Source: a virus. Taken from it: DNA of 64,000 bases. How positions within the stretch are numbered: position 1 is the first letter of the stretch; each line of letters opens with the position of its first letter. The notes under the pieces were generated by a model. That model saw nothing but the letters and a program-made list of their open reading frames with translations. It made no database searches and was not told where the DNA came from. Positions 5,965 through 25,889 of the stretch are shown piece by piece. The DNA lies in IMG/VR virus record IMGVR_UViG_3300047462_000185, positions 1 through 64,000 of that record; one strand, written 5' to 3'. The position numbers and the translations under genes are program-made.

Positions 5965-8900
5965 ATGGCTCTGCCGAATCCTCACTTCGATGCCTCGGTG
6001 ATCGGCGCGTTGCGCCAGCGTCTCGTGGCGCACAACCAGGCGCTCGCCAAGCGGGACGACAGGCTCACCCTAGGCAAGATGAAGGGGCTCTATCGGCGCT
6101 TCTACCATGGCAGCGATGATCCGCACGTCGCTGCCCTGATCCGGATCGACAGCCACCTCGCCAAGTTGCGTAAGGCCGAGTTCGACGCGGATGACCATCC
6201 CCGCGGCGCTGGCGGCAAGTTCCGCTCGAAGGGCGGAGCGAGAGCTGGTGCATTCTACCCGGCAACCCGCGATCAGCACGAGGCGCTGAAAGACGAGAAC
6301 TACGGTTATCGCCAAAACCAAACCGCGATCATTCCCGAGACGCGCTACGAGACGCTCGGACCTCCCGCTGCCACAGCGATCGGTGTGGGAGCAGGTGCTA
6401 TCCAGGGCGCTCTGTTCTCGACCCCAAAGGGAGACGCAGTCGATCGCGTTGTGGGGCGTTTCGGCCGCGGATTGGGATGGCTGGCAGGTGATATCGCGGG
6501 TCGCGCCACAATCGGAGCACCTGTTGTCTTGAGCGCGAAGGCAGCGAGACTTGGAATCGGAATGATCAACCGTTCTACCGGTTCTCGATTTCCGCGACCA
6601 AAACCAGATGCGGGCAAAAAATATTTGGCAGCGGGAGCCAAGATCGGCCGTCGTGCTGGACAACAAGTAGGCGGCCTTGCAGGAAAAGCCACTGGGCAGC
6701 TTGCTTCCATTCCGGCGTGGGCAACACGTCGAGCAATCGCAGGAATGATACCAGGTCGCCGCGGCAAATTGATTGCCGCACTCGCTGGGGGTTCGGTCGG
6801 CGGCGTTTTTCCAGGCTATTACGCCTATGGGCACTACCTCAACGCTGGCGTCTCATCGATCGCCCCTTTCATCGACGCGATGTTCCCGCGCCATGTCGAA
6901 AAGGCATTCGGCGCCGACATCGCCGCGCTCCTGACGGACTCCGAGGTGCTGGCCAAGCGCGACGCCGTGCTCGGCCTAGCCGGCGGCAACGACGTGTTGG
7001 AGAAGGCGCTGGGCGCCGAGATTGTGCGACGCGCCGTTCGGTTGATCGGCACCAAGGCCCGCGGCGTCGTCACCAGCAACGCGACCCAGGTGCCGCGCAA
7101 GTTCCGCATGTCGGCCGCGGGGCGCGCCGCCGTCACGGCCAGCGGTGGTGCGGTCGGCTCGATCGCCGGCGCCGCCGGCGGGGCCGCGGTTGGAGCCGGG
7201 CGGGCCATCTGGTCGGAGTTCAACGAAAAGCATCCCCGCGACGAGCGCGGGCGCTTCGCGCATGCCAATTCGGGTCGCGCCATCGCCCATGCCGCCGTGG
7301 TGGGGGCAGCGGTCGGCAGCGGGATCGGCCTGCTGGGCGGGCGCTACGCGGCGCGCCGGTTCGAAACCCGCCTGGCACGCAATGCCCTGGAGACGCATTT
7401 CTCGGCCGAAAACGTGCAGCGGATGCACAGCGACCTCGCCGCCAAGGTCAAGGAGCGCGTCGCGGATCGCTTTCTGGATGGGATGCACGACCCCGACAAA
7501 ATGCATGCCGAGGCGCTCGCAGCCGCGGCCCGAAACAAGACGGAGAAGTCTGAAGCGGCTGAGTTCGGGCGCGCCGCGTCGCACCTGGCGCGTCACCGTC
7601 CCTCCCTGCCCGAGACGATTCCTGTCGCACCTGGCGCGGACATGCATGGCACGGTGCGGGCCTCTCTGGCGCGCGCCGCCAGGGTGCGGTTCGACGCCAC
7701 GATAGGGCGCGCCGCCACATCGCCGATCAGCTGGATCACGCACCAGCTCGACGAGGGGTTCGACACCGAGTTCCGCAAGGGTATGTCGGCGCTCGGCGAA
7801 AAGATGCCGATGTTCGCCAACGCCAAGGGCGCCAAGGCGAACCTGATCAACAACGTCGATCCGGAGCAGCTCAGCCCCGAGGCCCGCAAGCTGTGGGACG
7901 GACTGGTGGCGCGCCGGACCAAGACGCTGGATGAGGTCAAGGAGACGCTACACCGCCGCACCGGCGATATGCAGGGTGCCCAGAAGACGCAACGTGAGTT
8001 GCAGCGCAAGGTAGATGCACTGGCGGCGAAGCGGCAGCATGTCGAATACCGGGGCGCCGAACTGATCGATGACGACGAAGCCGATCCGGCCGAGTTGCGT
8101 GCCTTCCTGAAATCCGAATTCGGCATCGAGTCGAAGGTAAGCAAGCGTCTCGCGCCAGAGGCGCAGCTCAAGGCGCTCAAGACCGAACTGCATAGCGCGA
8201 TCACACAGTTCGACGCCTCGGCCAAGACAGAGATCGAAGACATGACGCGCGACCTGGAGGACGCCAGGGAGCAGGTCAACCATCTGTCATCCGATATCCA
8301 CGGCGATCTGCGGCCCGCCGAGCGCGAGGCGATCCGCAACCCGTTCGCCACAGGCAAGAAGTCGCCGTTCTTCGAGCCGGTCCCGACCCGGGAAGAGCTT
8401 GAATTGATGCGCCAGGTCGCGATCCGGCGCGATCCGACCGTGCGCGCGTTCGACACCGTGACAGAGCAGCGCATCCGCGACGCCGGCAAGCGGCTCGGTA
8501 GCATCCTAGCGACGCAGAAGAAGGCGCTGGAGCGCCGGGGCCGCGCCGGCCTGACGGATGCCGGGGCGCACTGGATGCGCCGCGCCACGCCTATCCTGGC
8601 CCAGCATCTCGATGATGCGATGGCCGACCTGCACGCGCTGCGCGAGACGATGGTGGGCAATCGCGAGCCGAAGGGCTTCCTGCATTGGGTGCTGTTCGAC
8701 CGCGACATGAAGACCGCGGGCGCCTGGATGAAGGCTCAGGCCAAGAAGGCCCACGATTTCGGCGAGAAGATCGGCGGCGCGGCCTGGAACAACAAGGCGA
8801 AGATTGTCGGCGCGCTGGGCGTGGCCGAGGCGATCGGCGGCGTGTCCTACGACGACAAGACAGGCACGAAGGTGACGCTCAACCCGCTGAAATGGTCGCT

Positions 8901-10746
8901 GCCGCGCGGCCTGAAGGTCGAGGCGAGTAACCCAGATCCGTTCAACAAGGACAAAGGCCTGGTCGGCGTCACCTATCGAGCGCGCGACGGCAAGCGCCGG
9001 TTCCTGGTCGGCGCCTATGACGACGGACAGCAGGTCGGTGAAGGCAAGCCACGCCCGCGCCGCGACATCGCGTTCAACGCCGAACTAGAGCAGGTCCGCG
9101 AGCGTGTCCGCCAAGGCGGTCAGGGCGGCGGGGCGCAGGGCCAGGGTGGGGGCGCCCGCGCTGAGCCGGTCCTGCCGGACGACAAGCGCCAGGAGGCTAT
9201 CACCGCAGTGGCCACGCTCAAGGCCCACGGCAAGATCAGAGACGGCGGTTCGGGCGACTGGACCTATCAGCACAAGGAGGGTGCCGATTACGGCCGGCTC
9301 CAGAACGAGGTGCGCACCGCGTTCATTGCCAAGCACAACCAGCGCTGGAATTTCGCGAAGGACAAGCGTCCATACAACCCGGTCGCCTATTTCAGCGCGC
9401 TCCACGATCTCTTCGAGGCGCCCGAAACCGCGCTACTTTCGACCCAGAACAGGGCCGACATCCTGACCGGCAAGGGCATCAACCACGGCATCATGGCGTG
9501 GAACCCGGCCTATGACGGGCAGAACAAGGGGCAGGTCAAACAGGCGCTCCTTCAGGAATTCGCTGGTCAAAGTAACGATGTGCATGTCATCCGTGGCGAG
9601 TCCGACAAGAAGCAGGTGTTCCGCGCGATCGACGTGCTTGGCAAGCATTACGGCCTCGACGGCAGCGATGTGGGCCAGATCCAGGCCGCGGTCGAACAGA
9701 AGATGTCTGGCCACCCGGTCCGCGAAGGCCGTCCACAAGGACAGAGCAACCAGCCGCGTCAGGAGCAGCCACGCGCGCAGAATCGCATCGATCCCAAGAA
9801 CCTGGCCGATGAGCTTTGGCGCGACGGCCATCGCGGCAATCACACGGACCAGGAAAGTTTCCGAAGCATCGTGGCGAAGGCCTACGAGATTAAGCTCGGG
9901 GAACTGAAGCGTGCCGGCAAGGAAGGCCGTGCCGCCGAGATCGAGGCGCTGAACAGCACTGAGCTGAAGTTCAAGGGCTACCAGAAGTCCGACTATGCCG
10001 TCGATCTCCGCAAGGCCGATCTGTGGAGCGCCGAGGAGGGCGACGGCATCAAGCGCGCCGTCGGCATGGGCGCCGGCGATCTCGCTGAGGCCGGGGGCCG
10101 CAAGCTTGGTTCGGGCGCGGGTGGTGGTCCAGATGTTGGGTCAAAGCAGGACAAGCGCTCGTTCTTCGAGCCGGTCCGACTTGGTGGCTCGGTGGGCAGC
10201 TTCGCCGGCGGCGCGGCTGGCTGGACCGGTGCCGAGCGTGCCCTGGCGAGTCGTGCCGCCGGGCGAGCCGCACGTGCGACAGCGGCCGGCGTCATCTCGG
10301 TGCCGCGCCGCGCCAGCGCCGGCATCGCCGGCCGGCTCACCGGCGCGGGCCTCAAGTCTCTCGCGCGAGACGGCGCTGAACACGTGGTCGGGTTCGGCCT
10401 GAAGACGGCCGGCTCGATCCTGGGCGGCGCGGTCGGGCAGATCGGCCTCGAAGCCGCGGCGCGCGGCGCCTACGCATTGGCCGGCAAGAAGGCGCCGGGC
10501 AGCTACGCGCCCAAGATGTCGGGTGGCGAGCAGGTGGCGCGCACCGTCGGCTCAGTGTTGGGACAGGGCGCGGCTGTAGCGCTGGCCCCCGAAACGTTCG
10601 GCGCATCCCTGGCAGCTGGCACAGCCGGCGGTATGGCGGGTGATGCGGTCGGCGGTTGGCTCTACCACCATTTCGCGTCGAACTACGGCAAAGCCACGGC
10701 CAAACACATGGGCCGCTACTTCGCGCCCCCGGCGAAGAGCGCATGA
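5965..10746 (+). CDS. giant glycine-zipper head-operon protein, candidate internal/ejection protein
   Basis: This 1593-residue protein has a good ribosome site (GAGGAGAGGCC) before ATG 5965. Near the N-terminus is DDHPRGAGGKFRSKGG and near residue 420 is KHPRDERGRFA, the same short motif as in the XkdF-type protein. Several Gly/Ala zipper segments occur (IGVGAGAIQGALF, GGSVGGVFPGYYAYG, GSIAGAAGGAAVGAG, VGAAVGSGIGLLGG, GSVLGQGAAVALAP). Residues 620-890 are coiled-coil-like. No enzymatic domain is recognised. Size, position before the capsid gene and membrane-active segments suggest a protein packaged in the head and ejected with DNA; this is inference. Confidence 0.75.
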   Translation: MALPNPHFDASVIGALRQRLVAHNQALAKRDDRLTLGKMKGLYRRFYHGSDDPHVAALIRIDSHLAKLRKAEFDADDHPRGAGGKFRSKGGARAGAFYPATRDQHEALKDENYGYRQNQTAIIPETRYETLGPPAATAIGVGAGAIQGALFSTPKGDAVDRVVGRFGRGLGWLAGDIAGRATIGAPVVLSAKAARLGIGMINRSTGSRFPRPKPDAGKKYLAAGAKIGRRAGQQVGGLAGKATGQLASIPAWATRRAIAGMIPGRRGKLIAALAGGSVGGVFPGYYAYGHYLNAGVSSIAPFIDAMFPRHVEKAFGADIAALLTDSEVLAKRDAVLGLAGGNDVLEKALGAEIVRRAVRLIGTKARGVVTSNATQVPRKFRMSAAGRAAVTASGGAVGSIAGAAGGAAVGAGRAIWSEFNEKHPRDERGRFAHANSGRAIAHAAVVGAAVGSGIGLLGGRYAARRFETRLARNALETHFSAENVQRMHSDLAAKVKERVADRFLDGMHDPDKMHAEALAAAARNKTEKSEAAEFGRAASHLARHRPSLPETIPVAPGADMHGTVRASLARAARVRFDATIGRAATSPISWITHQLDEGFDTEFRKGMSALGEKMPMFANAKGAKANLINNVDPEQLSPEARKLWDGLVARRTKTLDEVKETLHRRTGDMQGAQKTQRELQRKVDALAAKRQHVEYRGAELIDDDEADPAELRAFLKSEFGIESKVSKRLAPEAQLKALKTELHSAITQFDASAKTEIEDMTRDLEDAREQVNHLSSDIHGDLRPAEREAIRNPFATGKKSPFFEPVPTREELELMRQVAIRRDPTVRAFDTVTEQRIRDAGKRLGSILATQKKALERRGRAGLTDAGAHWMRRATPILAQHLDDAMADLHALRETMVGNREPKGFLHWVLFDRDMKTAGAWMKAQAKKAHDFGEKIGGAAWNNKAKIVGALGVAEAIGGVSYDDKTGTKVTLNPLKWSLPRGLKVEASNPDPFNKDKGLVGVTYRARDGKRRFLVGAYDDGQQVGEGKPRPRRDIAFNAELEQVRERVRQGGQGGGAQGQGGGARAEPVLPDDKRQEAITAVATLKAHGKIRDGGSGDWTYQHKEGADYGRLQNEVRTAFIAKHNQRWNFAKDKRPYNPVAYFSALHDLFEAPETALLSTQNRADILTGKGINHGIMAWNPAYDGQNKGQVKQALLQEFAGQSNDVHVIRGESDKKQVFRAIDVLGKHYGLDGSDVGQIQAAVEQKMSGHPVREGRPQGQSNQPRQEQPRAQNRIDPKNLADELWRDGHRGNHTDQESFRSIVAKAYEIKLGELKRAGKEGRAAEIEALNSTELKFKGYQKSDYAVDLRKADLWSAEEGDGIKRAVGMGAGDLAEAGGRKLGSGAGGGPDVGSKQDKRSFFEPVRLGGSVGSFAGGAAGWTGAERALASRAAGRAARATAAGVISVPRRASAGIAGRLTGAGLKSLARDGAEHVVGFGLKTAGSILGGAVGQIGLEAAARGAYALAGKKAPGSYAPKMSGGEQVARTVGSVLGQGAAVALAPETFGASLAAGTAGGMAGDAVGGWLYHHFASNYGKATAKHMGRYFAPPAKSA

Positions 10747-14069: not shown

Positions 14070-14546
14070 ATGCATCTCTTCAAGCTGCGGCCCGGCGTAA
14101 CATCCGTCTCGGTCGACGGTGTCGAATACCGGCCCGACGAAGACGGTTTCGTTCGGATCGACTCGCCATCGCTCAAGGTGCTGGGGTTCCTCTCCACCGA
14201 AGGGCACCGCGCCGCGACCGACGAGGATTTCGCGACGCCACCGGCCGCCGGCTCGGAAGACGACGAGAAGACAGCGCTGCTGGCGCGCATCGAGGCGGCG
14301 GGCGGCAAAGCGGATCGGCGCCGCTCGCTCGCCAACCTGCGCTACATCGCGGCCGAGCTCGAAGCGCCAACACCGCCAGCCGCCGCCGCGGCAGCAGCAC
14401 CAGCAGCACCAGCAGCGGCGCCTGCAACCCCTGCGGCCACCCCGGAGCCGCCGGCGGCTACGCCAGCGCCCACAACAGCCACCACGCCAGCACCGGAAGC
14501 AACGGGCGCCGCTGCCCCGGCCACGCCTGAGTCAGCGGCTACCTGA
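14070..14546 (+). CDS. hypothetical protein with Pro/Ala-rich tail
   Basis: This 158-residue protein starts at ATG 14070, eight bases after AGGAG. The N-terminal 45 residues form a compact beta unit (VTSVSVDGVEYRPDEDGF) followed by a helix (ALLARIEAAGGKADRRRSL). The last 70 residues are an extended Ala/Pro/Thr tail (PATPAATPEPPAATPAP). It lies between the capsid and head-tail connector genes, where decoration or head-completion proteins are usual. The function is not recognised. Confidence 0.7.
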   Translation: MHLFKLRPGVTSVSVDGVEYRPDEDGFVRIDSPSLKVLGFLSTEGHRAATDEDFATPPAAGSEDDEKTALLARIEAAGGKADRRRSLANLRYIAAELEAPTPPAAAAAAAPAAPAAAPATPAATPEPPAATPAPTTATTPAPEATGAAAPATPESAAT

Positions 14547-14549
14547 TCC

Positions 14550-15143
14550 GTGTCTGGCTCGACCGAAACCGTATCGACGCCCTGGATCACGCTGGCGCAG
14601 CTCAAGGCGTGGCTCAACATCACCGACTCGAGCCAGGACGCCAACCTGACCCCCTTGCTCACCGCGGCGACGCAGGCCTGTATCTCCTATCTGAACCGCG
14701 ACCTGGTGCAGTCCAGCCAGACCGAGACCTATGACGGGCCGGGCAGTTCGATCCTGCCGCTGAACACGTTCCCCATCACCGCGGTGGCGAGCGTGATGAT
14801 GGACGGCCAGCCCGTCGTTCCGGCCGCGTTCAACCAGGCCGGCTATGTGATCGGCAAGTTCTCGCTCCGGGCGAAGGGAATGGTCTGGTGCAAGGGGTTC
14901 CAGAACGTCACGGTCAGCTACACGGGCGGCTATGCCACGATCCCCACCGATGCGGTGCAGGCCTGCCTGCTGGCCGCGTCGGCCATGTTCAACTCGATGG
15001 CGGCTGACCCCAACCTCCAGTCGGAATCGACGTCAGGCGTATTCTCCGGCTCGTTCTGGCAAAGCGGGCCCGGCGCGCTGCCGCCGTCGTCGCGCAGCCT
15101 GCTGATCAACTATCGCAAGGTCTACAGCGGCATCGCGGGGTAA
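14550..15143 (+). CDS. head-tail connector (HK97 gp6-like) protein
   Basis: This 197-residue protein starts at GTG 14550. The opening WITLAQLKAWLNITDSSQD, followed by LTPLLTAATQACISYLNR, is the classic start of gp6-like adaptor proteins, which form the ring beneath the portal. A conserved-looking Gly-Gly-Tyr (VSYTGGYATIPTDAVQACLL) and the C-terminal ISPxR-like RSLLINYRKVY also fit. It follows the capsid genes, as expected for a connector. Confidence 0.8.
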   Translation: MSGSTETVSTPWITLAQLKAWLNITDSSQDANLTPLLTAATQACISYLNRDLVQSSQTETYDGPGSSILPLNTFPITAVASVMMDGQPVVPAAFNQAGYVIGKFSLRAKGMVWCKGFQNVTVSYTGGYATIPTDAVQACLLAASAMFNSMAADPNLQSESTSGVFSGSFWQSGPGALPPSSRSLLINYRKVYSGIAG

Positions 15144-15149
15144 CGCATC

Positions 15150-15857
15150 ATGATGGGACGCGGCTACTACCTGCAGCGTCGCATCGATGCCCGCTACCAG
15201 CAGCGCGGCTCGCAAATCACGCTGCGGCGGGTCTCCTTCCTGTCAGGCAACAATACGCTGCCCAACCCAGCCATGCTCAAGAATCTCACCGTCGCCCAAG
15301 ACGCGGCCCAAGGTGACGTCACGGTTTCGCTCAGCGCCACCGTGGCGCGGGGACGGCTCGTGCCGGGCGACCAGCTCGTGATGGGCAACGTCACGGCCAC
15401 TGTGGCGCAGCTCCAGGTCAACGACATCACGCTAGAAAGCGGGACCGTTCTCTTCGCCGAAAATGGCGATCAGATCACGCTCGACGGGTCGTTCTCATCC
15501 TATGACCTGCCGCCCTTGCTGACCGACACGCCAGCGGTGAACAATGCTTTTCCGCAGGTCCTGCTGACCGAGCCCTTGTCGGGGCCCGTGAGTGCCGGAA
15601 CCCAGGTGACGATGGTCTGGCAGGCCGACACGACGGTTTATGGCTACATCAACAGCTATGACAACACGATGATCGACGGCCAGCGCATCCAGGCCAATGA
15701 CCTCCAGGTCGGCATTTCCGCGCTCAGCGCCAATCCTGCTGCGCCTCCCACCATCACCGACAAGATCGTCGTGCTGGGCGTCGAGAAGGCGATCCTGAAC
15801 GTGAGCAGCAAGATCAACGACAACCAGCAGCTCGTATGGGTGTGCCAGGTCCGCTGA
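15150..15857 (+). CDS. hypothetical head-closure region protein
   Basis: This 235-residue protein is encoded between the gp6-like adaptor and the gp10-like tail component, where head-closure or stopper proteins are normally found. The N-terminus is basic (YYLQRRIDARYQQRGSQITL). The middle is rich in beta strands (TVSLSATVARGRLVPGDQLV). No sequence family is recognised, so the head-closure role rests on gene order. Confidence 0.65.
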   Translation: MMGRGYYLQRRIDARYQQRGSQITLRRVSFLSGNNTLPNPAMLKNLTVAQDAAQGDVTVSLSATVARGRLVPGDQLVMGNVTATVAQLQVNDITLESGTVLFAENGDQITLDGSFSSYDLPPLLTDTPAVNNAFPQVLLTEPLSGPVSAGTQVTMVWQADTTVYGYINSYDNTMIDGQRIQANDLQVGISALSANPAAPPTITDKIVVLGVEKAILNVSSKINDNQQLVWVCQVR

Positions 15858-15867
15858 GGAGGTCGCT

Positions 15868-16275
15868 ATGGCGGATTTCTCGGTCGATGTGGCGTCCTGG
15901 GTCGACAAGGCGCTGATGCGGGCCGAACAGGCGTTCCAGGCCACGGCTCAGGGCGCGGTGAACCGGGTCAAGGATCTCACGCCGGTCAAGACGGGCTACC
16001 TGCGCGCCAACTGGACCGCGATTCATGCCGGCGATGCCGAGCCCACCCCTGGCGCGGTGCCAGACGCAATGGATGCGATCAGCAGCGCGCCGCTGGGTAG
16101 CACTCTCGTTGTGCTCAACCCGGTCGTCTATGCGCGACGCGTCGAGTATGGGTTCGTTGGCGAGGACAGCCTGGGGCGGCACTATAACCAGCCAGGGCGG
16201 CACATGACCCAGCAGACCGTGTCCGAGATGCCGTCCATCGCCGAGGCAGCCGTCGAACTGGTTGTCAGCGAGTGA
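15868..16275 (+). CDS. HK97 gp10-like tail-completion/neck protein
   Basis: This 135-residue protein contains AVNRVKDLTPVKTGYLRANWT, the hallmark of HK97-gp10-like proteins (helix, then T-P-V-x-T-G-x-L-R). NPVVYARRVEYGF follows, as in the family. It joins the connector and the tail terminator. A clear GAGGA site precedes ATG 15868. Confidence 0.85.
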   Translation: MADFSVDVASWVDKALMRAEQAFQATAQGAVNRVKDLTPVKTGYLRANWTAIHAGDAEPTPGAVPDAMDAISSAPLGSTLVVLNPVVYARRVEYGFVGEDSLGRHYNQPGRHMTQQTVSEMPSIAEAAVELVVSE

Positions 16276-16694
16276 GTTCGATCGGCATTCAGACCGCGCT
16301 GGATAACGCGATCATCGCGTTTCAGGCGGCCAACCCGCAGTTCGAGTTGGCGCTGGAGAACACACCCTACACTCCCACAAAAGGGGTGATGTATCTCAGC
16401 ACCGCGATCAGCGGGCTCAACCGCCGCAAGATCGCGCTGGGTCCGCAGGCCGTCTCGGTTGCGGAATACATGGGCTACTATCAGGTCAGCGTGAACGGCG
16501 CGATCGACGAGGGCATGGCCGTGCTGCGCGCCGCCGGCGATCTCGTCGCGGACGCGTTTCCGAGCGGCCTGGTCCTGATCGGCTCGGACGGCACACGGGT
16601 GATCATCCAGATCGCCTCCCCGCAATCGGCGATCGAAAACGGCGACTGGGTGACCGTGCCCGTCGCGATCCAGTGGTTCAGCACCGACCCATAG
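16272..16694 (+). CDS. tail terminator protein
   Basis: This 140-residue protein starts at a GTG overlapping the preceding stop (GTGA). It has the family pattern of an N-terminal helix (IQTALDNAIIAFQAANP), a strand (YLSTAISGLNRRKIALGP) and a central GYYQVSVNG, followed by a helix and a final strand containing IQWFSTDP. Tail terminators cap the tail tube and lie just before the tube gene, as here. Confidence 0.75.
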   Translation: MSSIGIQTALDNAIIAFQAANPQFELALENTPYTPTKGVMYLSTAISGLNRRKIALGPQAVSVAEYMGYYQVSVNGAIDEGMAVLRAAGDLVADAFPSGLVLIGSDGTRVIIQIASPQSAIENGDWVTVPVAIQWFSTDP

Positions 16695-16757
16695 GCTGAA
16701 GCGTCAGTAGAGTCCCACATGCCGCTTGGGTAGCGGCGAACAGCAAGGTTTCCGCAC

Positions 16758-17987
16758 ATGACGACAACTTTCGCACGCGGCGTTGCGAAGACGCTTGCGC
16801 TCGCCGAAGAAGCCTCGTTCGGCGTCAAGTCGACCGCGGCAGGCTCCTATCTGCGCCGCACCTCGTCGGACCTGACCCTGTCGACCGACGCCTACCAGAG
16901 CCAGGAAATCCTGCCGAGCCAGCAGGTCGAGGATCTCCGGCTCGGCGTTCATCGCGTCTCGGGCACGATCAGCGGACAACTATCGCCCGGCGCCTATGCC
17001 GATCTGTTCCAGGGCATGATGCGCGGCACCTGGGCCGGAAAGGTGCAACTGACCAGCCAGATCGTCACTCTGTCGGCCTTGTCGAACGGCGGCACGGCGA
17101 TCAATGCCAGCGCCGGCGGCTTCCTCGCCTCGGGCCTGAAGATCGGTGACATCATTGTCCTGACCGGATTCTCTGGCGGTTACACGGCGAACAACAACGT
17201 CAACTGCCGCATCTTCGCCATGACCGACACCACGATTTCGGTCTATGAGGGGCTGACCGTGGTCAGTTCGGCGGTGAGCGGCATCACGATCGCCCAGGCC
17301 GGCAAGAAGCTGCTCATGGCGGGTAGCAACCAGCTGTTCCGCAGCTACACGCTGGAGCACTGGTTCGCCGATGTGGGTATCTCCGAGGCTTTCGTGGGCT
17401 GCCGCATCAGCCAGATCTCGCTCAACATCCCGGCCACGGGTCTGGTGACATTCAGCGCCACCGTGACGGGTCAAGACATGATCACCGGCACGACCCAGGT
17501 CTACGGGTCGGCCGCGGGTCCGACGACGGACAACTCGCTCGCCGCGGTGAGTGGCAAGATCGCCTACAACGGCGCATCGCTCGGCATCATCACCGGCCTG
17601 TCGCTCCAGCTCACCGCGAATGTGCAGTCTAACCCTGTGCTGGGCTCGGACGTGGTGCCCGAAATCTTCATGGGCATGATGCGGGTCAATGGCAGCTTCA
17701 CCGCCATGTTCACCGATGAGACGCTTGAGACCAACTTTATCACCGAGACCGAGACCACGCTCCACGCCTATCTGACCTCGACCCAGGCGCCGAACTCCGA
17801 TTTCATCAGCATCTTCATCCCAAGGGTCAAGGCGATGTCGGCCCAGAAGTCGGACAGCGATATGAGCCTGATCCAGTCGTTCAACTTCAGCGGCCTTTAC
17901 CAGACCGCCGGCGGCGCCGGCACCGCGCTGGACGCCACCTCGATCAGCATGATGGATAGTTCGGTGCCGAGCTGGATCGGGGCTTGA
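16758..17987 (+). CDS. major tail (tube) protein
   Basis: This 409-residue protein is encoded between the tail terminator and the tail chaperones, the position of the tube protein. The N-terminus (ALAEEASFGVKS) and the block VSGTISGQLSPGAYADLFQG are typical of long siphovirus tube proteins. Further support comes from GLVTFSATVTGQDM and, near the C-terminus, MRVNGSFTAMFTDE. The protein is long for a simple tube subunit (usually 150-250). The extra length probably forms an additional domain. Confidence 0.78.
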   Translation: MTTTFARGVAKTLALAEEASFGVKSTAAGSYLRRTSSDLTLSTDAYQSQEILPSQQVEDLRLGVHRVSGTISGQLSPGAYADLFQGMMRGTWAGKVQLTSQIVTLSALSNGGTAINASAGGFLASGLKIGDIIVLTGFSGGYTANNNVNCRIFAMTDTTISVYEGLTVVSSAVSGITIAQAGKKLLMAGSNQLFRSYTLEHWFADVGISEAFVGCRISQISLNIPATGLVTFSATVTGQDMITGTTQVYGSAAGPTTDNSLAAVSGKIAYNGASLGIITGLSLQLTANVQSNPVLGSDVVPEIFMGMMRVNGSFTAMFTDETLETNFITETETTLHAYLTSTQAPNSDFISIFIPRVKAMSAQKSDSDMSLIQSFNFSGLYQTAGGAGTALDATSISMMDSSVPSWIGA

Positions 17988-17991
17988 TATC

Positions 17992-18005
17992 CACATCATC
18001 GTGTG
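17992..18005. promoter_or_regulatory. 14-bp palindrome copy 3 (CACATCATCGTGTG)
   Basis: This copy lies five bases after the tail-tube stop and 57 bases before the next gene. A further half-like GTGTGTG follows at 18011-18017. Confidence 0.55.
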
Positions 18006-18062
18006 TTTTCGTGTGTGGGCTGGCGCTTGGTCCAGTGACGCGCAACAAGGGAAGGGACGGAG

Positions 18063-18467
18063 ATGGCTGACGAGGTCGAGGACAAGCTGCTGCTCGATCT
18101 GCGGCGTGGCCAGCTCCGCTCCCCCCGTCACTCGCTTCTGATCCGGCCGTTCCTGTTTGGTCAGTTCCGAATCCAGCTGACCAGGGTGGGCAATGAAATG
18201 GTCCCGGGTGCGCCCGCGGGGCGCGGCGACATCGTGCGCGAACTTTGCACCTACAGCCGGACCCGCGCCTCGATCGTCGCGACCGCGCTGCGGGATGCGG
18301 AAGATCCGGAACAGCGTGCCGAGGAATTCGCCAATCCGTGGAATTGCGAAGGGCCTGGCGCCCGAATCCGGCTGGATAACTGCCCAGAGGACAGGCCCGA
18401 GACGATGGGCCAGCAGGTGCTCAACGCCGGCACGATCGAAGTCCCGTTGCCAGGCGATATCACCTAA
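18063..18467 (+). CDS. hypothetical protein after the tail tube gene
   Basis: This 134-residue protein begins at an ATG after GGGACGGAG. It is charged, with a central helix (IVRELCTYSRTRASIVATAL) and two Cys in the second half. It is framed by palindrome copies on both sides, so it could be controlled apart from the tail operon. No family is recognised. A minor tail or assembly role is possible from position. Confidence 0.6.
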   Translation: MADEVEDKLLLDLRRGQLRSPRHSLLIRPFLFGQFRIQLTRVGNEMVPGAPAGRGDIVRELCTYSRTRASIVATALRDAEDPEQRAEEFANPWNCEGPGARIRLDNCPEDRPETMGQQVLNAGTIEVPLPGDIT

Positions 18468-18468
18468 A

Positions 18469-18482
18469 CACACGACTCTGTG
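18469..18482. promoter_or_regulatory. 14-bp palindrome copy 4 (CACACGACTCTGTG)
   Basis: It begins one base after the stop of the 134-residue gene. With the copy at 18513 it brackets the candidate promoter of the Acb2-like gene; the two centres are 44 bases apart, about four helical turns. Confidence 0.55.
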
Positions 18483-18497
18483 CTAATTCGGAACCGA

Positions 18498-18526
18498 TTG
18501 ACGGACGGAAACCACATTGTTATGTG
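18498..18526 (+). promoter_or_regulatory. candidate sigma70-type promoter of the Acb2-like gene
   Basis: TTGACG (18498-18503) and TATGTG (18521-18526) are separated by exactly 17 bases. Transcription would start about seven bases on, at the ATG at 18533. No Shine-Dalgarno precedes that ATG, so a leaderless transcript is likely. The -10 box is inside a palindrome copy, so a protein bound there would block RNA polymerase. Confidence 0.5.
18513..18526. promoter_or_regulatory. 14-bp palindrome copy 5 (CACATTGTTATGTG)
   Basis: Perfect half sites, extended by C and G on the outside. It overlaps the candidate -10 box of the Acb2-like gene and ends six bases before its ATG. Confidence 0.6.
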
Positions 18527-18532
18527 GTCCGT

Positions 18533-18778
18533 ATGTCGCATCTCTATGAGACCGAACCTGACGCCCGTCAGTCCAGCGTGCCGATCACCACGTCGCGGTT
18601 CCGGCCACGATATCGGCAACTCACTGCCGACGAGATCGCGTTGCACGACCAGCTCAAGGCCAAGGCCGCGGAACTGGAAGCGCTGATCGAGCAGGTCAAA
18701 CCGGGCCGCTACCGCAGCCTCGCCATCACCGCCCTCGAAGAGTCCATCATCTGGGTAGTGAAGGAACTCACGGCATGA
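18533..18778 (+). CDS. Acb2/Tad1 hairpin-domain protein, candidate cyclic-nucleotide sponge
   Basis: This 81-residue protein carries the pattern of the Acb2/Tad1 hairpin family: RYRQLTADEIALHDQLKAKA, then LEALIEQVK, RYRSLAITALEESIIWVVK and a final ELTA. Family members bind cyclic oligonucleotide signals made by CBASS, or Thoeris signals, and so shield the phage from abortive defence. Which ligand is bound here cannot be told. The start is ATG 18533; a GTG at 18524 is an alternative. It has its own candidate promoter and overlaps the next gene by four bases (ATGA), although it is not a tail protein. It therefore looks like an inserted accessory gene. Confidence 0.72.
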   Translation: MSHLYETEPDARQSSVPITTSRFRPRYRQLTADEIALHDQLKAKAAELEALIEQVKPGRYRSLAITALEESIIWVVKELTA

Positions 18779-19191
18779 GCTTCGATCTCGCCACGCTCGA
18801 CACGCTGGCCAAGTCGCAGATCGGGGCGGATATGGAGATCATCCATCCCGCCAACCGCGCCCCGGTCAAGGGTGACAACGGCCAACCGCTGACAATCACC
18901 CTGCTAGGCCGCAGTTCCGACGTGTTCCAGGCGATGAGCCGGCGCATCATGCAGGAACGGGTCGCTAAGTCGGGTCGCGGCATCAACCTGACCCAGGACG
19001 ACATCGAGCGCGAAAACGTCGAGTTGCTGACGGCCTGCACGGTGCGCTGGACCGAATTCTCGATCGACGGCACGCCGTTTCCCTGGACACCCGACAATGC
19101 GCGCCGGCTCTGGTCCGATCCGCGCTGGCGCTGGCTCAGCGAGGCCGCGTTCAAGTTCATCCATGACGATGGAAATTTTTTGGCTCGCTGA
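18775..19191 (+). CDS. tail assembly chaperone, gpG-like
   Basis: This 138-residue protein is encoded directly before the tape measure gene, the fixed place of the lambda G/GT chaperones. It has the opening DLATLDTLAKSQIGADMEII, LTITLLGRSSDVFQAMSRR and a C-terminal WRWLSEAAFKFIHDDGNF. The stop TGA at 19189 is preceded by a slippery sequence that allows a longer -1 product. The short form would bind the tape measure protein and be lost from the finished tail. Confidence 0.75.
   Translation: MSFDLATLDTLAKSQIGADMEIIHPANRAPVKGDNGQPLTITLLGRSSDVFQAMSRRIMQERVAKSGRGINLTQDDIERENVELLTACTVRWTEFSIDGTPFPWTPDNARRLWSDPRWRWLSEAAFKFIHDDGNFLAR
19173..19182 (+). other. programmed -1 ribosomal frameshift site (AAATTTTTTG)
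   Basis: Two canonical X-XXY-YYZ heptamers overlap in the zero frame: A-AAT-TTT (19173-19179) and T-TTT-TTG (19176-19182). They lie three codons before the gpG-like stop. Moving back one base opens a 121-codon frame that ends at 19547, ten bases before the tape measure start. This matches the lambda G-GT arrangement. Confidence 0.8.
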
Positions 19192-19547
19192 TCGGCCGGC
19201 TCGTCCTTGGCGCTGAGGCGCTGTTCAAGCTCGACAAGCCGATGCCCGAGGGCGGCACGCTGCGCGACGCCTTTGCCAGCTATCGCCGCCAGGTCGGTCG
19301 CCCTCATCCGCAGGAGGTCAGCGCCGACCAGATCCCCGAAAGCGTGGCCTACCTGGTCCAGTATTTCGGCGAGATGTGCCGCGGCCGCCCGATTACCGAG
19401 GTCGGGATGTTGCCAATCCCCGCCAGCGAAATGCTGGCCTGGTCACAACTGACTGGCATCCGTCTGGCGCGTTGGGAACTCAGCGCGATCGTGCAGCTCG
19501 ACCAGACCTATCTCCGCGTCATGCGGCCCACCCCGCCGGCGAAATAG
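19182..19547 (+). CDS. gpT-like extension of the tail chaperone, read by -1 frameshift
   Basis: This frame has no start with a ribosome site near its beginning. It is reached by a -1 slip at 19173-19182, giving a fusion of about 257 residues. The extension reads GSLIGRLVLGAEALFKLDKP, then a helical region (VAYLVQYFGEMCRGRPITEV) and a C-terminus LDQTYLRVMRP. In lambda the T part of gpGT binds the tube protein while the G part binds the tape measure, so the fusion links both. Confidence 0.7.
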   Translation, partial: GSLIGRLVLGAEALFKLDKPMPEGGTLRDAFASYRRQVGRPHPQEVSADQIPESVAYLVQYFGEMCRGRPITEVGMLPIPASEMLAWSQLTGIRLARWELSAIVQLDQTYLRVMRPTPPAK

Positions 19548-19556
19548 GAGGCGCGC

Positions 19557-22500
19557 ATGACTGATCTCGCGTCGCTCTCCTTCTCGATCGACAGCAGCCA
19601 GGCCAAGCAGGCCAGCGACACACTGACCGCCATGGCGCTCGCCGCGGCACAGGCCAACACGAGCCAGAAGGATCTGGCCCAGACCAGCGCCGCGTTCAGC
19701 CAATCGCTCCAGCAGCAGCTCCAGGCGATGACGATGTGGCAGTTCGGCCTGCAGCAGGCCGGCTCGGCGCTCCAGTTGATGATTACCCAGATGCACGCCT
19801 GGCAGGACGTGATGGGAACCAGCACGACGGCGACCAACTCGTTCCGCGACAGCCTGAACCAGGTCATCGCCGTGGCGACGACGTTCGGCCAGAGCGCGGC
19901 CGGGTTTGAGACCTTCGTCAATCAGGCAAACCGGCTGAAGCTTGCCGCCGATCAGATCCCGCAAGCGCTGCAACGCATCAGCGCGGCGACGGAGAACCAA
20001 ACGCCGTTCGGGATGCAGGTGCGCCAGGTCGCGCAAAGCTATGGCACCATTGTGCCGCAGGGCGGCTATGATCAGGCCGGCGACGTGCTGCAATCCTTCG
20101 TGGCGAACGCGGGTCAGTATCGCGACACGATGCAGAAGCTGCGCGACATCCAGACCGTGTTGGGTCCGATGGATGCGCAGAGCATTCGCCAGTTGCAGCG
20201 GCTCGATTATGTGCCGATCGCGACACAGCAGGCGCGCAACTATGCGCAGAGCTACAACGTCCAAGCCGATCGCACCGCGCAATTCGTCGACCAACAGACC
20301 TATCAGAATAACCAGTTCGCCGCCCAATATGCCGATCTGACGAGCCGCTACAATGTGCCCCCGTCGATGTCGTTTTCGACGCAGGCCCAGCAGCTCGATT
20401 ACCTGCAAAACCTCCAGCAGAACGGCAGCATCTGGCAGAAACTGGGATCGTCCACCAACCTGCTGGGGGCTTTGTTCGATCCGGCTGTCGTCGGCACATC
20501 GAACCCGCTGCTCAACACGCTGAGCTATTGGAATTCGGGCCAGTTCGGGCGAAACCAGTCCGCCATCATGGCGCAGTTCGTCGGCGATCGCCAGCAGCAG
20601 GGGCTTTTCCCAGCCGCATGGACGGCGATAGGCCGAGAAGTATCGAACTATCTGCCGGGCGGCTACACCGCCCCTGCGGTCAACGACAACCGATTCCTGA
20701 GCCCGGCCGACATCGCGGCGCAGCAGACCGCGCTGGGCGGCCAGCTGGCCGGGTTCGGAAGCAGTGGCTACGCCCAGTGGGCCAATGCGACCCAGCAGAT
20801 CGCCGCACTCAATGCGCCTGGCAATGGGCTTGGGCTGTTCCAGCGCGCCTACGGCGACACGGAAGGGGCACGGCAGTTCTATAACGCCAGCACTGCGCTG
20901 GGGCAGCAGCAGACCTATGCCTTGGCGCCTTGGCAGCGCCAGCAGGACCAGACCGGTCAGCAGGCGTGGTTGATGAGCCTTCCGCCCGACCAGCGCGCCC
21001 GCGCTCAGGCCTTCCTCCAGGCCGCACCGCAGTATGGGGTGAGCACGTCCAACCTTCGCCCCGGCACCACGCTGGCGCAGGCCATGGGCGGCCCAGGGCT
21101 GAACGACAACATCGCTGGCGCGATCAATGGCAGTTTCGATCAAGGAGTCGCTGGCCAGCTGCAAGGCTCGCAGGAAGCGTCGCAGCGCGACATCGATCTT
21201 CAGACCCAGCTCCAGCAGAAACTGACCGAGGGCAAGGCGGCGGCCGACGACTTCGTGAAGTCCTGGCAGGCCAGGACCCAGGCCCTCCTGGATGGCGCGA
21301 CGAAGGACCAGGCCGCGGCGGCCGCGTCCGATGCGCTGAACAAGAGCACGGCCGAGCGTATCACGATCGGCAAGGCGCTCCTGGTGCAGATCGGTCAGCA
21401 GACCGATGCAACGAAGCAGCAGATCAACATCGCGGCGAACGCCACTTCGTCGAACGACCCGATCCAACGCGCCGCCGCCGCCTATGCGTTCGGGGTCGAC
21501 AACACCACGCTGAACGCGATCCTGAGCGGCCAGATCGATGGCAGCCAGGGCACGGCCTACACCGCGGCGCAGTTCAACCAGCTGAGCAACCAGGGCTTGC
21601 TGAGCGCTTATCAGCGCACCAACACGCAGCGCAACACGCTCGGCCAGCAGCAGCAGGTCCTGAGCGTCGCGCAAGCCGGCGGTAACACCGGCTATGCGCA
21701 GCAGTCGATCCAGCTGCAGCAGCAATACAGCGACGATCTCGCCAAGGCGCAGGCCCAGGTCTTGTCGATCTCGCAGCAGATCTGGAGCGGCAACGCCCAG
21801 GACCTCGCCAACGCCAAGGCGAAGGTCTCGGCGATCCAGAGCCAGGCCGACGCGGCGCAGCAGTTGTTGCAGGCCCAGCAGCGTGCCACGGAGGCAACGA
21901 AGAACTACAGCGACGCCAACTCGATGGAGAACCAGGCGCAGCTGAACATGCTGATCGCCGGCGCGCCTGACTCGCAGCGTGGCCTGATGCAAACCTACGC
22001 CGGCGTGATCGGGTCGCGCATGAACGACATCTCGATGCGCCAGCAGACGCCGAGCACCTACAACGTGCCGCAGCAGTATCAGGCGGCGATCGCCGCGGCG
22101 GCCCAGCAATATGGCGTGCCGCAGAACTTCCTGACCACGATGCTAGGCACTGAGAATTCGGGGTTCAACCCGAACTTGGTCAATCCGAAGTCCGGCGCGA
22201 TAGGGCTAGGCCAGTTTATGCCGAGCACGGCGCAGAACGTGCCTGGCTATGGGCCGGTCGATCCAACCAATCCAATCGCCAGCATCAATGCGATGGCCGC
22301 ATATCTGGCCAACTTGCAGAAAAACACGGGCCAGAGCGGCGCGCAGAGTTGGCTGACCGCGGGCATGCAATACAAGGGCGCCGGCTCCTTCATGAGCCAG
22401 GGCGTCTCGTCGCAGGCCATCGCCGACCTGGCGACTTCGCTAGGCGTCAATCTCGGCACTGTCATGTCGCCCAGCCAGATGATCGCGAGCATCCGGCCCG

Positions 22501-23963
22501 GCGGCAACGGCGCACCAGACCTGCAAGCCCTGGGCGCGGCCGCAACCGACCTCTACGGCTCTCAGCAGGCCGTGGCGATGGCGAACACCAACAGCGCCAC
22601 CAATCTAGCCACGGCGCGGTTCAGGGCCGGTCTGCCCTTCGCCCAGGCCGGTATGCCGCAGGCCGCGCAATTCGCCGCCCTCGGCGTGGCCAACCCGCAG
22701 CTCGCGCCGGGCAATGCGGCCGCGGGCACAACCTCGGCACAGCTCGGCTACGTGCAGGGCCTGACCAACAGCACGGACCAGTCCAACGGCGCGCTTTTGA
22801 TCCAGATCCAACAGGCTCAGATGCTCGCCCAGGCCGCGTTGGCCGGCAACGCAGCGCTCCAGCAGCTCCAGCAGACCCTGCAAAACTACAACAGTTTGCA
22901 GCAAGCCGGCGCGATGAAGAGCATGTCGACCACGAGCGACATGACACAGGCGATCAACACCTACATCGCGTCGCTCCAAAAGTCGCAAGCTCTTCAGCAG
23001 CAGGCCACGAACGCGCAGGGCATGATCAAGGTCAACTCGGCGATCGCCGGCAACAATTCGGAATCAGACCTGCTCAACGCCAACCTGGCCCTCGGTCCGT
23101 TCATCAACCAGGACCAGGCGCAAATGGCGATGGTGGCGCCCACCGTGCATCAGCAGATGCTCAACGATCCGACCCAGGCCGGCCTGGTCGGCACCTCGGC
23201 GGAAAGCGATCTCGTGCAATCCACCCAGGCCGTCACCGCGCTGAAGCAGTTGGCCAACCAGCAGCAGGCGGTGCGCAGCGGCTTTGACGCGATGAGCTCC
23301 TCCATTCTCAATAGCTTCACCAGCGCTGTGACCGGCGGTCAGAACCTGCGGAGCGTGCTGAGCGGCCTGCTCAACGATCTGATCAAGATCACGATACAGG
23401 CTACGGTGCAGAAGCCGCTGAGCAACGCGCTGTCGAGCGGCGCTTCGGGTCTGTGGGGACTACTGACCAGTGGAATAAGCGGCTATAGCGCCGAGGGTTT
23501 GCCCACCGCGTCCACGCTGACGAGTTTGGGCAACCAAGCCGCTGCGAACATCGCCGGCGGCTCGGCAGGACTGGCCGCAGGCGGCGTCTACAACCCCATC
23601 CGGCTCTACGGCTCGGGCGGTCTGTTCGGCGGTCCCACGCTCATCCCAGCGGCCGACGGCATGGTGCTGGCCGGCGAGGCCGGCCCGGAAGCCGCGATGC
23701 CGCTGACACGTCTCGCCAACGGCGATCTCGGCGTGAAGATGTCGGGCGGCTCGAGCGGCGGGTTTAGCTACAGCCCCGCCATCACCGTGCATGTCAATTC
23801 GCCGGCCAACGGCAACGGGGCAGCAAACGTCCAGGCGTCCAAGCAGATGGGTGACATCATCTCGCGGCAGGTCAAGCAGACGATGGACGACAACATGGCG
23901 CGTCACCTTCAGCCGGGTGGCCTGATCTACAGCGCGATCCGTCAGAACCGCGGGGTGGCCTGA
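19557..23963 (+). CDS. tape measure protein with embedded lytic transglycosylase domain
   Basis: This 1468-residue protein is rich in Gln and Ala and mostly helical. Near residues 835-945 is an SLT-type lytic transglycosylase domain, with TENSGFNPNLVNPKSGAIGL followed by GQFMPSTAQN; the Glu of TENSG is the likely catalytic residue. The C-terminus (GGLFGGPTLIPAADGMVLAG, EAGPEAAMPL) is typical of lambda gpH-like proteins. It sets tail length and may help DNA through the cell wall. At about 0.15 nm per residue the tail would be near 220 nm. GGAGG precedes the ATG. Confidence 0.9.
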   Translation: MTDLASLSFSIDSSQAKQASDTLTAMALAAAQANTSQKDLAQTSAAFSQSLQQQLQAMTMWQFGLQQAGSALQLMITQMHAWQDVMGTSTTATNSFRDSLNQVIAVATTFGQSAAGFETFVNQANRLKLAADQIPQALQRISAATENQTPFGMQVRQVAQSYGTIVPQGGYDQAGDVLQSFVANAGQYRDTMQKLRDIQTVLGPMDAQSIRQLQRLDYVPIATQQARNYAQSYNVQADRTAQFVDQQTYQNNQFAAQYADLTSRYNVPPSMSFSTQAQQLDYLQNLQQNGSIWQKLGSSTNLLGALFDPAVVGTSNPLLNTLSYWNSGQFGRNQSAIMAQFVGDRQQQGLFPAAWTAIGREVSNYLPGGYTAPAVNDNRFLSPADIAAQQTALGGQLAGFGSSGYAQWANATQQIAALNAPGNGLGLFQRAYGDTEGARQFYNASTALGQQQTYALAPWQRQQDQTGQQAWLMSLPPDQRARAQAFLQAAPQYGVSTSNLRPGTTLAQAMGGPGLNDNIAGAINGSFDQGVAGQLQGSQEASQRDIDLQTQLQQKLTEGKAAADDFVKSWQARTQALLDGATKDQAAAAASDALNKSTAERITIGKALLVQIGQQTDATKQQINIAANATSSNDPIQRAAAAYAFGVDNTTLNAILSGQIDGSQGTAYTAAQFNQLSNQGLLSAYQRTNTQRNTLGQQQQVLSVAQAGGNTGYAQQSIQLQQQYSDDLAKAQAQVLSISQQIWSGNAQDLANAKAKVSAIQSQADAAQQLLQAQQRATEATKNYSDANSMENQAQLNMLIAGAPDSQRGLMQTYAGVIGSRMNDISMRQQTPSTYNVPQQYQAAIAAAAQQYGVPQNFLTTMLGTENSGFNPNLVNPKSGAIGLGQFMPSTAQNVPGYGPVDPTNPIASINAMAAYLANLQKNTGQSGAQSWLTAGMQYKGAGSFMSQGVSSQAIADLATSLGVNLGTVMSPSQMIASIRPGGNGAPDLQALGAAATDLYGSQQAVAMANTNSATNLATARFRAGLPFAQAGMPQAAQFAALGVANPQLAPGNAAAGTTSAQLGYVQGLTNSTDQSNGALLIQIQQAQMLAQAALAGNAALQQLQQTLQNYNSLQQAGAMKSMSTTSDMTQAINTYIASLQKSQALQQQATNAQGMIKVNSAIAGNNSESDLLNANLALGPFINQDQAQMAMVAPTVHQQMLNDPTQAGLVGTSAESDLVQSTQAVTALKQLANQQQAVRSGFDAMSSSILNSFTSAVTGGQNLRSVLSGLLNDLIKITIQATVQKPLSNALSSGASGLWGLLTSGISGYSAEGLPTASTLTSLGNQAAANIAGGSAGLAAGGVYNPIRLYGSGGLFGGPTLIPAADGMVLAGEAGPEAAMPLTRLANGDLGVKMSGGSSGGFSYSPAITVHVNSPANGNGAANVQASKQMGDIISRQVKQTMDDNMARHLQPGGLIYSAIRQNRGVA

Positions 23964-24334
23964 TGAGCAGCTACCCTACCTTCTCGCCGCCGATGCAGCC
24001 CAGCGCGCAAGGGACGTCGCGCAAGATCGTGCCGCGCGTCCTCGCCACGAATTTCGGCGATGGCTACGTGCATCGCATCGCCGACGGGATCAACACCCAG
24101 CTCGAGGAATGGACCGTGACGTGGTCCGTCCTGCTGCCATCCCAATCCGCGACGATCCAATCGTTTTTCGCGTCGCTCTACGGCTGCCTGCCGTTCACCT
24201 GGACCCCGCCGAACAGCACCCAGGCCAACGTCTATATCTGCTCGGACTGGACCGAATCAGAAGTCGATTCCGGCCTGGTTTCGCTGAGCGCCACGATCGT
24301 CCAGACCGTCGATTACGGGTTCGCCGAGCCATGA
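23963..24334 (+). CDS. minor tail protein, lambda gpM-like
   Basis: This 123-residue protein follows the tape measure gene with a one-base overlap. The block VLATNFGDGYVHRIADGIN and later LPFTWTPP match the phage minor tail family of lambda gpM, which joins the tail tip to the tube. The final VDYGF also fits. Gene order M-L-K-I-J is preserved downstream. Confidence 0.8.
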   Translation: MSSYPTFSPPMQPSAQGTSRKIVPRVLATNFGDGYVHRIADGINTQLEEWTVTWSVLLPSQSATIQSFFASLYGCLPFTWTPPNSTQANVYICSDWTESEVDSGLVSLSATIVQTVDYGFAEP

Positions 24335-25035
24335 CATGGGAATTCGATCAGGTCCGGCAGCTTCTCTCGCCGGGCCAACTGGTCAAGCTCTACACGCTCG
24401 ACGCCTCGGCGCTGGGTGGCCCCGTGCTCTATTGGGTGCCTGGCCCGCTCAACGGCGCCCCTGTATCCCTGGGTGGAATCAGCTACACGCCCTACCCCGT
24501 CGATGCGAGCGGGTTCGAGTGGAGCGGTCAGGGCTCGCCGCCGCGCCCCAAGCTGAGGGCGTCGAACATCAACGGCTACATGACCAGCCTGATCATCGCC
24601 TACGGCGATCTGCGCGGCGCGCAGGTGATCCGGACCCGCACCCTGGCCGACTTCCTGGATGGTCAGCCCGACGCCGATCCGACGGCGGGCTGGTCGACCG
24701 ACGTCTGGTATATCGACCAGAAGACCCACGCCGATAACACCTACGTCGAATGGCAGCTCGCGATGGTGTCCGACCAGCAGGGCATCATCCTGCCGCGGCG
24801 CCAGTGCATCCAGAACAACTGCACCTACACCTACCGGGTCTGGCAGGGCGATGCGTTCAACTACTCCGCGGCCCAGTGCCCCTACACGGGCTCGGCGCTC
24901 TACACCACCGAGGGGCTCGGCACCGAGGATCCCACTCAGGACGTGTGCGGCCGCAAGCTGACCGACTGCCGGCTCCGGTTCGGCCAGGGTGCCACGCTGC
25001 CCTTTGGCGGCTTCCCGGGCATGCTGCGCTCGTGA
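24331..25035 (+). CDS. minor tail protein, lambda gpL-like with a Cys cluster
   Basis: This 234-residue protein starts at ATG 24331, overlapping the previous stop. It has the gpL pattern SPGQLVKLYTLDAS and GISYTPYPVDASGFEWSGQG. The C-terminal part carries five Cys (RRQCIQNNC, QCPY, DVCGRKLTDC). Lambda gpL binds an iron-sulfur cluster through C-terminal Cys, so a similar cluster is likely here. It sits in the tail tip. Confidence 0.8.
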   Translation: MTWEFDQVRQLLSPGQLVKLYTLDASALGGPVLYWVPGPLNGAPVSLGGISYTPYPVDASGFEWSGQGSPPRPKLRASNINGYMTSLIIAYGDLRGAQVIRTRTLADFLDGQPDADPTAGWSTDVWYIDQKTHADNTYVEWQLAMVSDQQGIILPRRQCIQNNCTYTYRVWQGDAFNYSAAQCPYTGSALYTTEGLGTEDPTQDVCGRKLTDCRLRFGQGATLPFGGFPGMLRS

Positions 25036-25889
25036 CGTTCTTCGTCTCCCCTATGGCGCGAGCTGCGGCCAAGGCACACGCGGTCGAGACCTACCCGCAG
25101 GAGGCGTGCGGCGTGCTGAAGAACGGCACTTATGTGCGCTGCACCAACACCGCGACCGAGAAGGACACCTTCGTGATCGCGGCCGAAGAGTGGCACAACC
25201 TTCAGCCGGTCGAGGCCCTGATCCACAGCCATCCCGATGGGCCCGGCTTTCCGTCGATGCAGGACATGAAAAGCCAGATCGACATGGATATCCCGTGGGG
25301 CCTCATCGTGGTCGGCAAGGGTGGTCCCAACGGCGAGATCATGGCGGCCGACCCCTGGTTCTGGGGCGACACGCTGCCCATCGCACCGCTCACGATGCGC
25401 GACTTCCGGCACGGCCCGAGCGGCACCGACAACAAAGGCGATTGCTACGCCCTGATCCGCGACGTGTATCGCAGCGATCCGGCCGAGATACAGGCTGCGA
25501 TCGACCGTGCCACGGGACGGATCCACGCCCCTGCCCCACCGCGTCACGGCGCGCCGGTGCAACGCACGCTGGAGACGTGGCCCCTCGCCGCGCCCGTCGT
25601 GCTCGACGAAATACCGCGTGACGACAGCTGGTGGACCAAAGGAAGCAATCTCTATCTCGACCACTTCAACGCGGTCGGGTTCGACGCCATCGTCAAAGAT
25701 CCGAAGATGGTGCGGGCCGGCGACATCTTTCTGACCCGACTCATCAGCAAGGTGCCGAACCACGGCATGGTCTACCTGGGCAACAATCTGATCATGCACC
25801 ACAAGCCGGGCCGCCCGGCCAACATCGAGCCGTGCCACCGCTGGTTTCCGAACCTGACCCACGTGTTGCGCTACCGAGGTGTGTCATGA
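25032..25889 (+). CDS. tail tip protein with MPN/JAB and NlpC/P60 domains, lambda gpK-like
   Basis: This 285-residue protein starts at a GTG overlapping the gpL-like stop (GTGA). The N-terminal half has the metal-binding JAB pattern HSHPDGPGFPSMQD with a Glu upstream (AAEEWHNL). The second half is an NlpC/P60 peptidase: the Cys in GDCYALIRDVY (about residue 138), the His in NHGMVYLG (about residue 244) and a further His in NLIMHHK. These would process peptidoglycan or tail proteins during infection. Lambda gpK has the same two domains. Confidence 0.85.
   Translation: MTFFVSPMARAAAKAHAVETYPQEACGVLKNGTYVRCTNTATEKDTFVIAAEEWHNLQPVEALIHSHPDGPGFPSMQDMKSQIDMDIPWGLIVVGKGGPNGEIMAADPWFWGDTLPIAPLTMRDFRHGPSGTDNKGDCYALIRDVYRSDPAEIQAAIDRATGRIHAPAPPRHGAPVQRTLETWPLAAPVVLDEIPRDDSWWTKGSNLYLDHFNAVGFDAIVKDPKMVRAGDIFLTRLISKVPNHGMVYLGNNLIMHHKPGRPANIEPCHRWFPNLTHVLRYRGVS

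Follow-up and report, generated by a model that had tools for sequence, protein, structure and literature searches.

Acb2 and Tad1, the closest described relatives of the protein studied here, form hexamers, and in Acb2 (p26 of PaP2/PaMx33, Vs.4 of T4) two long antiparallel helices are arranged as a hairpin. In PaP2, the p26 gene lies at the end of, or beside, the DNA polymerase operon, and T4 vs.4 belongs to a cluster of small non-structural genes. A short N-terminal helix precedes the hairpin in Acb2 (PMC10419184), while Tad1 has an N-terminal antiparallel beta-sheet domain ahead of it (PMC12043709). Hairpin-family members studied so far are immune sponges (PMC12043709, PMC12657230). In T4 Acb2, the Y8A variant is binding-deficient, and T68M reduces affinity (PMC12657230).

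The locus described below belongs to an IMG/VR virus record of 106,637 bases, whose first 64 kb (GC 64%) make up the window, that is, the whole stretch of DNA analysed. We regard it as probable that the ORF at 18533-18778 encodes a compact hairpin sponge that would block immune signals, and that it is a cargo gene within the late tail operon of a phage that is itself probably temperate. The whole record contains one match to PF24729, which is this gene. Because a match to tyrosine recombinases/integrases (PF00589, 41 bits) is found at 88075-88560, beyond the window in the rest of the record (L120), the phage is probably temperate, or else the contig derives from a prophage. Two other ORFs of the window may be mentioned: a 1593-aa ORF ahead of the head genes (5965-10746), with repeats of an 'HPRxxxGxF'-type motif and the look of a polyvalent protein, and a gene within the tail operon (25035-25880) for a JAB-like and NlpC/P60 domain protein that resembles lambda K. 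The features that matter for the argument are listed in Table 1.

Table 1. Location of the hairpin gene, its parts and its neighbours in the window
Feature	Coordinates	Strand	Evidence and remarks
Major tail (tube) protein gene, 409 aa	16758..17987	+	Upstream edge of insertion; Phage_tube_2 E 1e-35; phrog_290 (tail) E 1.5e-53
Orphan gene, 134 aa	18063..18467	+	Inserted along with the sponge gene; no family match; missing from relatives' tail modules
Stem-loop pairing SD-like GACGGACGG with the start region, start codon included	18498..18539	+	-18.8 kcal/mol, z -3.35
Compact Acb2/Tad1 hairpin protein, putative cyclic-nucleotide sponge, 81 aa	18533..18778	+	PF24729 53.6 bits; AF2 pLDDT 89.3; Y27, K42, R59, T66
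N-terminal arm, residues 1-26, conserved P/S-D-x-R-Q/T motif	18533..18610	+	Outside the Pfam domain
Tail assembly chaperone 1, 138 aa	18775..19191	+	Start overlaps sponge stop (ATGA); phrog_313 E 2.1e-5
Slippery heptamer T TTT TTG, -1 frameshift between chaperones	19176..19182	+	Correct register
Tail assembly chaperone 2, 101 aa as listed	19242..19547	+	Pfam Phage_TAC_18 E 9.6e-14
Tape measure protein gene, 1468 aa	19557..23963	+	Length and position; after chaperones as in relatives

The ORF begins with an ATG at 18533 and ends with a TGA at 18776-18778; its 81 codons, and the two motifs that the original prediction quoted from the product, are present in the sequence letter for letter. Full-length homologs with 56-73% identity occur in dozens of independent contigs and share the same or nearly the same start methionine. 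On this comparative evidence, therefore, the ORF is a genuine gene. Its product matches PF24729, the Acb2/Tad1 hairpin family, with 53.6 bits (E 2.5e-14; curated cut-off, 27 bits), residues 27-77 being aligned with profile positions 2-54 of 58. Relatives were collected by two scans of viral contigs with degenerate patterns, the first confirming 16 and the second 240, of which 80 were kept; a genome collection yielded 28, mostly alphaproteobacterial.

Because the single window sequence gave no significant match in the PDB (p26 appeared at E 1.6-1.7), a family profile was needed, and profile A2, made of 71 of the collected homologs, was searched against every PDB sequence. Nine matches had E ≤ 0.005 and all nine were Acb2 or Tad1 chains, among them, in order, p26 Acb2 (6.9e-6), Acb2 homolog 43 (1.7e-4) and six Tad1 sequences (about 2e-3 to 4e-3). 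T4 Vs.4 came next with E 0.02, and all remaining entries had E 0.6 or worse. Membership of the hairpin family is near certain. Variants of the family were also seen: one member (L053, 6004-6525) continues in frame into a hydrophobic segment and some 90 further residues, 174 aa in total, as a fusion or an overlapping gene, and two close homologs (L045, 5045-5389; L048, 5989-6264) have several additional residues between the helices, a form in between the compact hairpins and Acb2-like proteins with their longer loops.

AlphaFold2, run on the A2 alignment, predicts a two-helix antiparallel hairpin (helices 32-52 and 59-80; mean pLDDT 89.3) preceded by an N-terminal arm modelled at lower confidence. 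When the model was compared with the PDB by Foldseek, ranks 1-5 were all Acb2 chains (prob 0.93-0.99, TM ~0.61), followed by Tad1. The E-values of these matches are weak (0.3-1) because a hairpin of 50 helical residues is a common shape. The named top matches in a viral structure library were likewise Acb2/Tad1 hairpin proteins. VIA-align does not discriminate: Acb2 and many unrelated hairpins all gave Z values of about 7.

The alignment of the family with PaP2 p26 and T4 Vs.4 places Y27 of the window protein at p26 Y11 and T4 Y8, K42 at p26 K26 and T4 K23, R59 at p26 R67 (T4 Acb2 has D61 there), and T66 at p26 T74 and T4 T68. We take K26 and R67 of p26 to be residues of the ligand pocket; of the four positions, the tyrosine and lysine are assigned to the dinucleotide pocket, the arginine and threonine to the second helix. 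K42, R59 and T66 are invariant in the 71 homologs and Y27 is found in 67 of them; the three invariant residues fall outside the pattern EE[SA][VI]MW used in one of the searches. Positions E69, E70, M73 and W74 are nearly invariant too (the window protein itself has I73), and their conservation was partly selected for, since that pattern contained them. Judged from the alignment, the signal-binding positions of Acb2 are kept in the window protein, and a sponge function, still putative, is likely. The original prediction had staked family identity and probable function on the helical hairpin and its nucleotide-binding residues: the hairpin is predicted, Acb2 heads the Foldseek ranking and the residues are in place, so that together with PF24729 and the profile search both claims are supported.

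The label 'Acb2/Tad1-type' holds insofar as the protein is related to both; strictly, it is neither, and 'compact hairpin' describes it better. The four residues of the p26 site (Y11, K26, R67, T74) are all matched. However, p26 carries 24 inserted residues relative to the family profile, an inter-helix insertion of about that length is also found in T4 Vs.4, and the window protein has none. It also lacks the short N-terminal helix (no helix is modelled in residues 1-31) and the C-terminal tail of Acb2, and its gene belongs to a tail operon, whereas those of Acb2 lie in clusters of replication or other non-structural genes. Another small, compact hairpin is Acb2 homolog 43 (PDB 9ptq, with 3'cADPR), which has 76 aa and a 'GRExS...TKLEEA' second helix; it is the second match of the profile, and VIA-align superimposes it with rmsd 2.5 over 57 residues, the Z of 7.1 being nondiscriminating. 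Its second helix, however, ends in FFATKA and not in the (M/I)WxVK of the window family.

With Tad1 the protein has in common the second-helix signature 'SRE...ALTxxEEAxMW': the family pattern is T-x-x-E-E-A/S-x-M-W, with I73 for M in the window protein. Tad1 chains in the PDB are about 125-138 aa long, in contrast with 81 aa here, and have a four-strand N-terminal beta sheet. No sheet appears in the AlphaFold2 model, and just 26 residues precede the hairpin domain. Those residues make up an arm in which D10 and R12 are invariant in alignment A1, even with the distant protein of phage Aussie included. Of 65 distinct homologs in which 12 or more residues precede the tyrosine, about 60 have the D-x-R motif (2-3 of these counts look doubtful on visual inspection); p26 and T4 Vs.4 lack it. 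The Aussie protein, gp37 of a Sinorhizobium phage, is annotated as hypothetical; it matches PF24729 and is 45.6% identical to the window protein over 57 residues. Its gene also lies within a virion operon, between the head-to-tail adaptor and the stopper, although the position is another one and the operon is otherwise unrelated.

In the window, the hairpin gene sits, as had been claimed, between the gene for a 134-residue protein and the tail chaperones, which are identified by phrog_313, Phage_TAC_18 and an in-register slippery site. The -1 frame stays open between 19167 and 19547, reaching into chaperone 2, the classical arrangement for programmed frameshifting in tail chaperones, and chaperone 2 is probably made as a -1 extension. 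In relatives chosen by a related major tail protein or chaperone, the order is major tail protein, chaperone 1, chaperone 2 and tape measure, the first two directly adjoining. No gene intervenes in Bradyrhizobium ppBdUSDA122-1, Stenotrophomonas QDWS359, PaMx74 or Curvibacter P26059A; Bacteriophage sp. 438212 has a like gene order without an additional gene before the chaperone, and the annotation of Caulobacter DMCA shows no gene between tube and tape measure. The orphan gene and the sponge gene are thus inserted between the major tail protein and the chaperones.

The orphan gene has a good SD and coding-like GC3. Its product has no match in Pfam, NCBIfam, PHROGs, phages or viral contigs (same phage excepted), and the structure prediction is unusable (pLDDT 36); perhaps it is another counter-defence gene. 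Inverted repeats TCGTGTGTTT flank it, at 17999 and 18466. We do not take them as ends of the insertion because 1 kb holds some 30 pairs of this kind. Composition was also considered as a sign of recent acquisition and rejected, as the GC (0.62) and GC3 (0.79) of the sponge gene do not depart from those of the tail genes.

The surroundings of the homologs are diverse. Ten tail and head genes of the window were looked for in the first 16 loci, and 15 of these loci had none of them; the exception (L003) is a 100% identical contig of the same phage, and no other close relative of the phage was found. Two flanking genes on each side of 35 loci gave 135 proteins from scattered families, none of them present more than three times. 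Genes lying near a homolog include terminase (L016, L029, L032), head morphogenesis (L044), major head protein (L038), head-tail adaptor (L024, L017), tail protein (L018), tail fibre (L010), primase (L031) and integrase (L041) genes and, in one locus (L007), a pyrophosphohydrolase-like (MazG) gene and an ERF-like gene; virion genes often adjoin close homologs. A search for plasmid copies found none. An SMODS/CD-NTase match was seen in one of three genomes carrying close homologs, a sample too small for use. Because homologs live in unrelated contexts and tail-module relatives lack the gene at this site, the proposal that it is cargo and not a tail gene is supported.

When is the gene expressed? 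The original prediction gave it its own control sites and early or lysogenic expression. A reading of this kind, in which the same sponge is made early or from the prophage by a promoter of its own within 18468-18532, draws on the 65-nt upstream gap with its unique perfect 16-nt inverted repeat, on the characterised Acb2 genes (PaP2 p26, T4 vs.4), which lie outside virion operons, and on the integrase gene elsewhere in the record. We consider it unlikely. A scan of 14400-24000 (9.6 kb) found no sigma-70-like promoter and no + strand terminator; it covers promoters of the sigma-70-like type, and those of the host clade may differ. The tail genes and the sponge gene are all on the same strand, and the sponge stop overlaps the chaperone 1 start (ATGA, in GCATGAG), with no 3' separation from the tail genes. 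Homologs, too, are commonly embedded between co-directional genes (30/34 upstream, 31/35 downstream), usually in packed runs; since the gene caller used for these loci misplaces many starts (repeated gaps of -28 correspond to a GTG inside MWxVK) and calls some antisense ORFs, it served just for strand and packing. The repeat itself is equally compatible with an operator and with an RNA stem-loop that covers the start codon. No Shine-Dalgarno sequence lies at normal spacing before the start codon, and an SD-like GACGGACGG occurs about 25-35 nt upstream, within a stem-loop whose inner arms, CCACAT/ATGTGG (18512-18527), form the 16-nt repeat, unique in the 106-kb record. This stem-loop is the strongest among 14 start regions of the structural module; since 5.5% of equally long windows of the structural region fold as well, it is just modestly unusual locally. 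It is the sole candidate control element, and may act as a translational switch or an operator or have no role at all. Given the overlap, the shared strand, the lack of a sigma-70-like promoter in the scanned region and the ambiguity of the stem-loop, control sites of its own are unproven and early or lysogenic expression is unsupported. Late co-expression with the tail genes is the simplest and more likely reading, and late timing is moderately likely.

Position could also suggest that the protein is an accessory of tail morphogenesis, a third chaperone or a tube-associated protein that shares merely the hairpin fold, as its gene lies between those for the major tail protein and the chaperones, shares their strand and has the ATGA overlap. 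This is very improbable: the gene is missing at the site in five related tail modules, close homologs lie beside terminase, primase, integrase, head and MazG/ERF genes, the ligand-binding residues are conserved, and no tail-family PHROG matches the protein (the PHROGs that do match are all of unknown function). We rejected a tail function on synteny and on the mixed neighbour contexts. A different possibility is that nucleotide binding by the hairpin does not block immunity but serves some other end, such as sensing or buffering host c-di-GMP or c-di-AMP so as to tune host physiology or the lysis-lysogeny choice. In its favour, this is a large and mobile family (one viral scan confirmed 240 relatives, and genomes gave 28), function has been tested in just a few members, and nothing in p26 or T4 Vs.4 corresponds to the conserved arm. 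Against this stand the conserved residues, which are those that hold immune signals in Acb2, and the sponge activity of the members studied so far, and we consider such a role quite improbable.

Under the reading that we prefer, a sponge made as cargo of the tail operon, the hairpin (modelled as a monomer) would probably assemble as an Acb2-like oligomer. The protein would bind, without cleaving them, cyclic oligonucleotide or cyclic ADP-ribose signals of CBASS, Thoeris or related defences; Y27/K42 and R59/T66 would hold the signal, and the effectors would stay off. The sponge gene, inserted along with the orphan gene, would most likely be expressed from the late structural transcript, its translation coupled to that of the chaperone gene, and the sponge would rise alongside virion proteins that some defences sense.

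A rather unlikely speculation goes further: the protein may represent an arm-bearing branch of compact hairpins, recurrent in virion operons of phages with alphaproteobacterial relatives and made together with the structural proteins that host defences sense. In that case, the D-x-R arm might contribute to a different ligand pocket, which could accept, for instance, a cADPR isomer or some other signal that Acb2 does not bind; the stem-loop at the start codon might time synthesis.

The window protein is an ordinary member of a known family, and what is somewhat unusual is only the location of its gene, among late tail genes. The catalogued anti-defence family is extended to a well-conserved compact form, common in alphaproteobacterial phages and prophage-like contigs; to our knowledge, counter-defence against CBASS and Thoeris has hardly been studied in Alphaproteobacteria. 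The locus also suggests that sponge genes can ride late virion operons instead of early ones. ThsB1 senses a major head protein (PMC12043709), and capsid mutations arise in an acb2-deleted phage (PMC10419184). If the sponge is truly late, the timing of its synthesis would fit defences that capsid or tail proteins set off.
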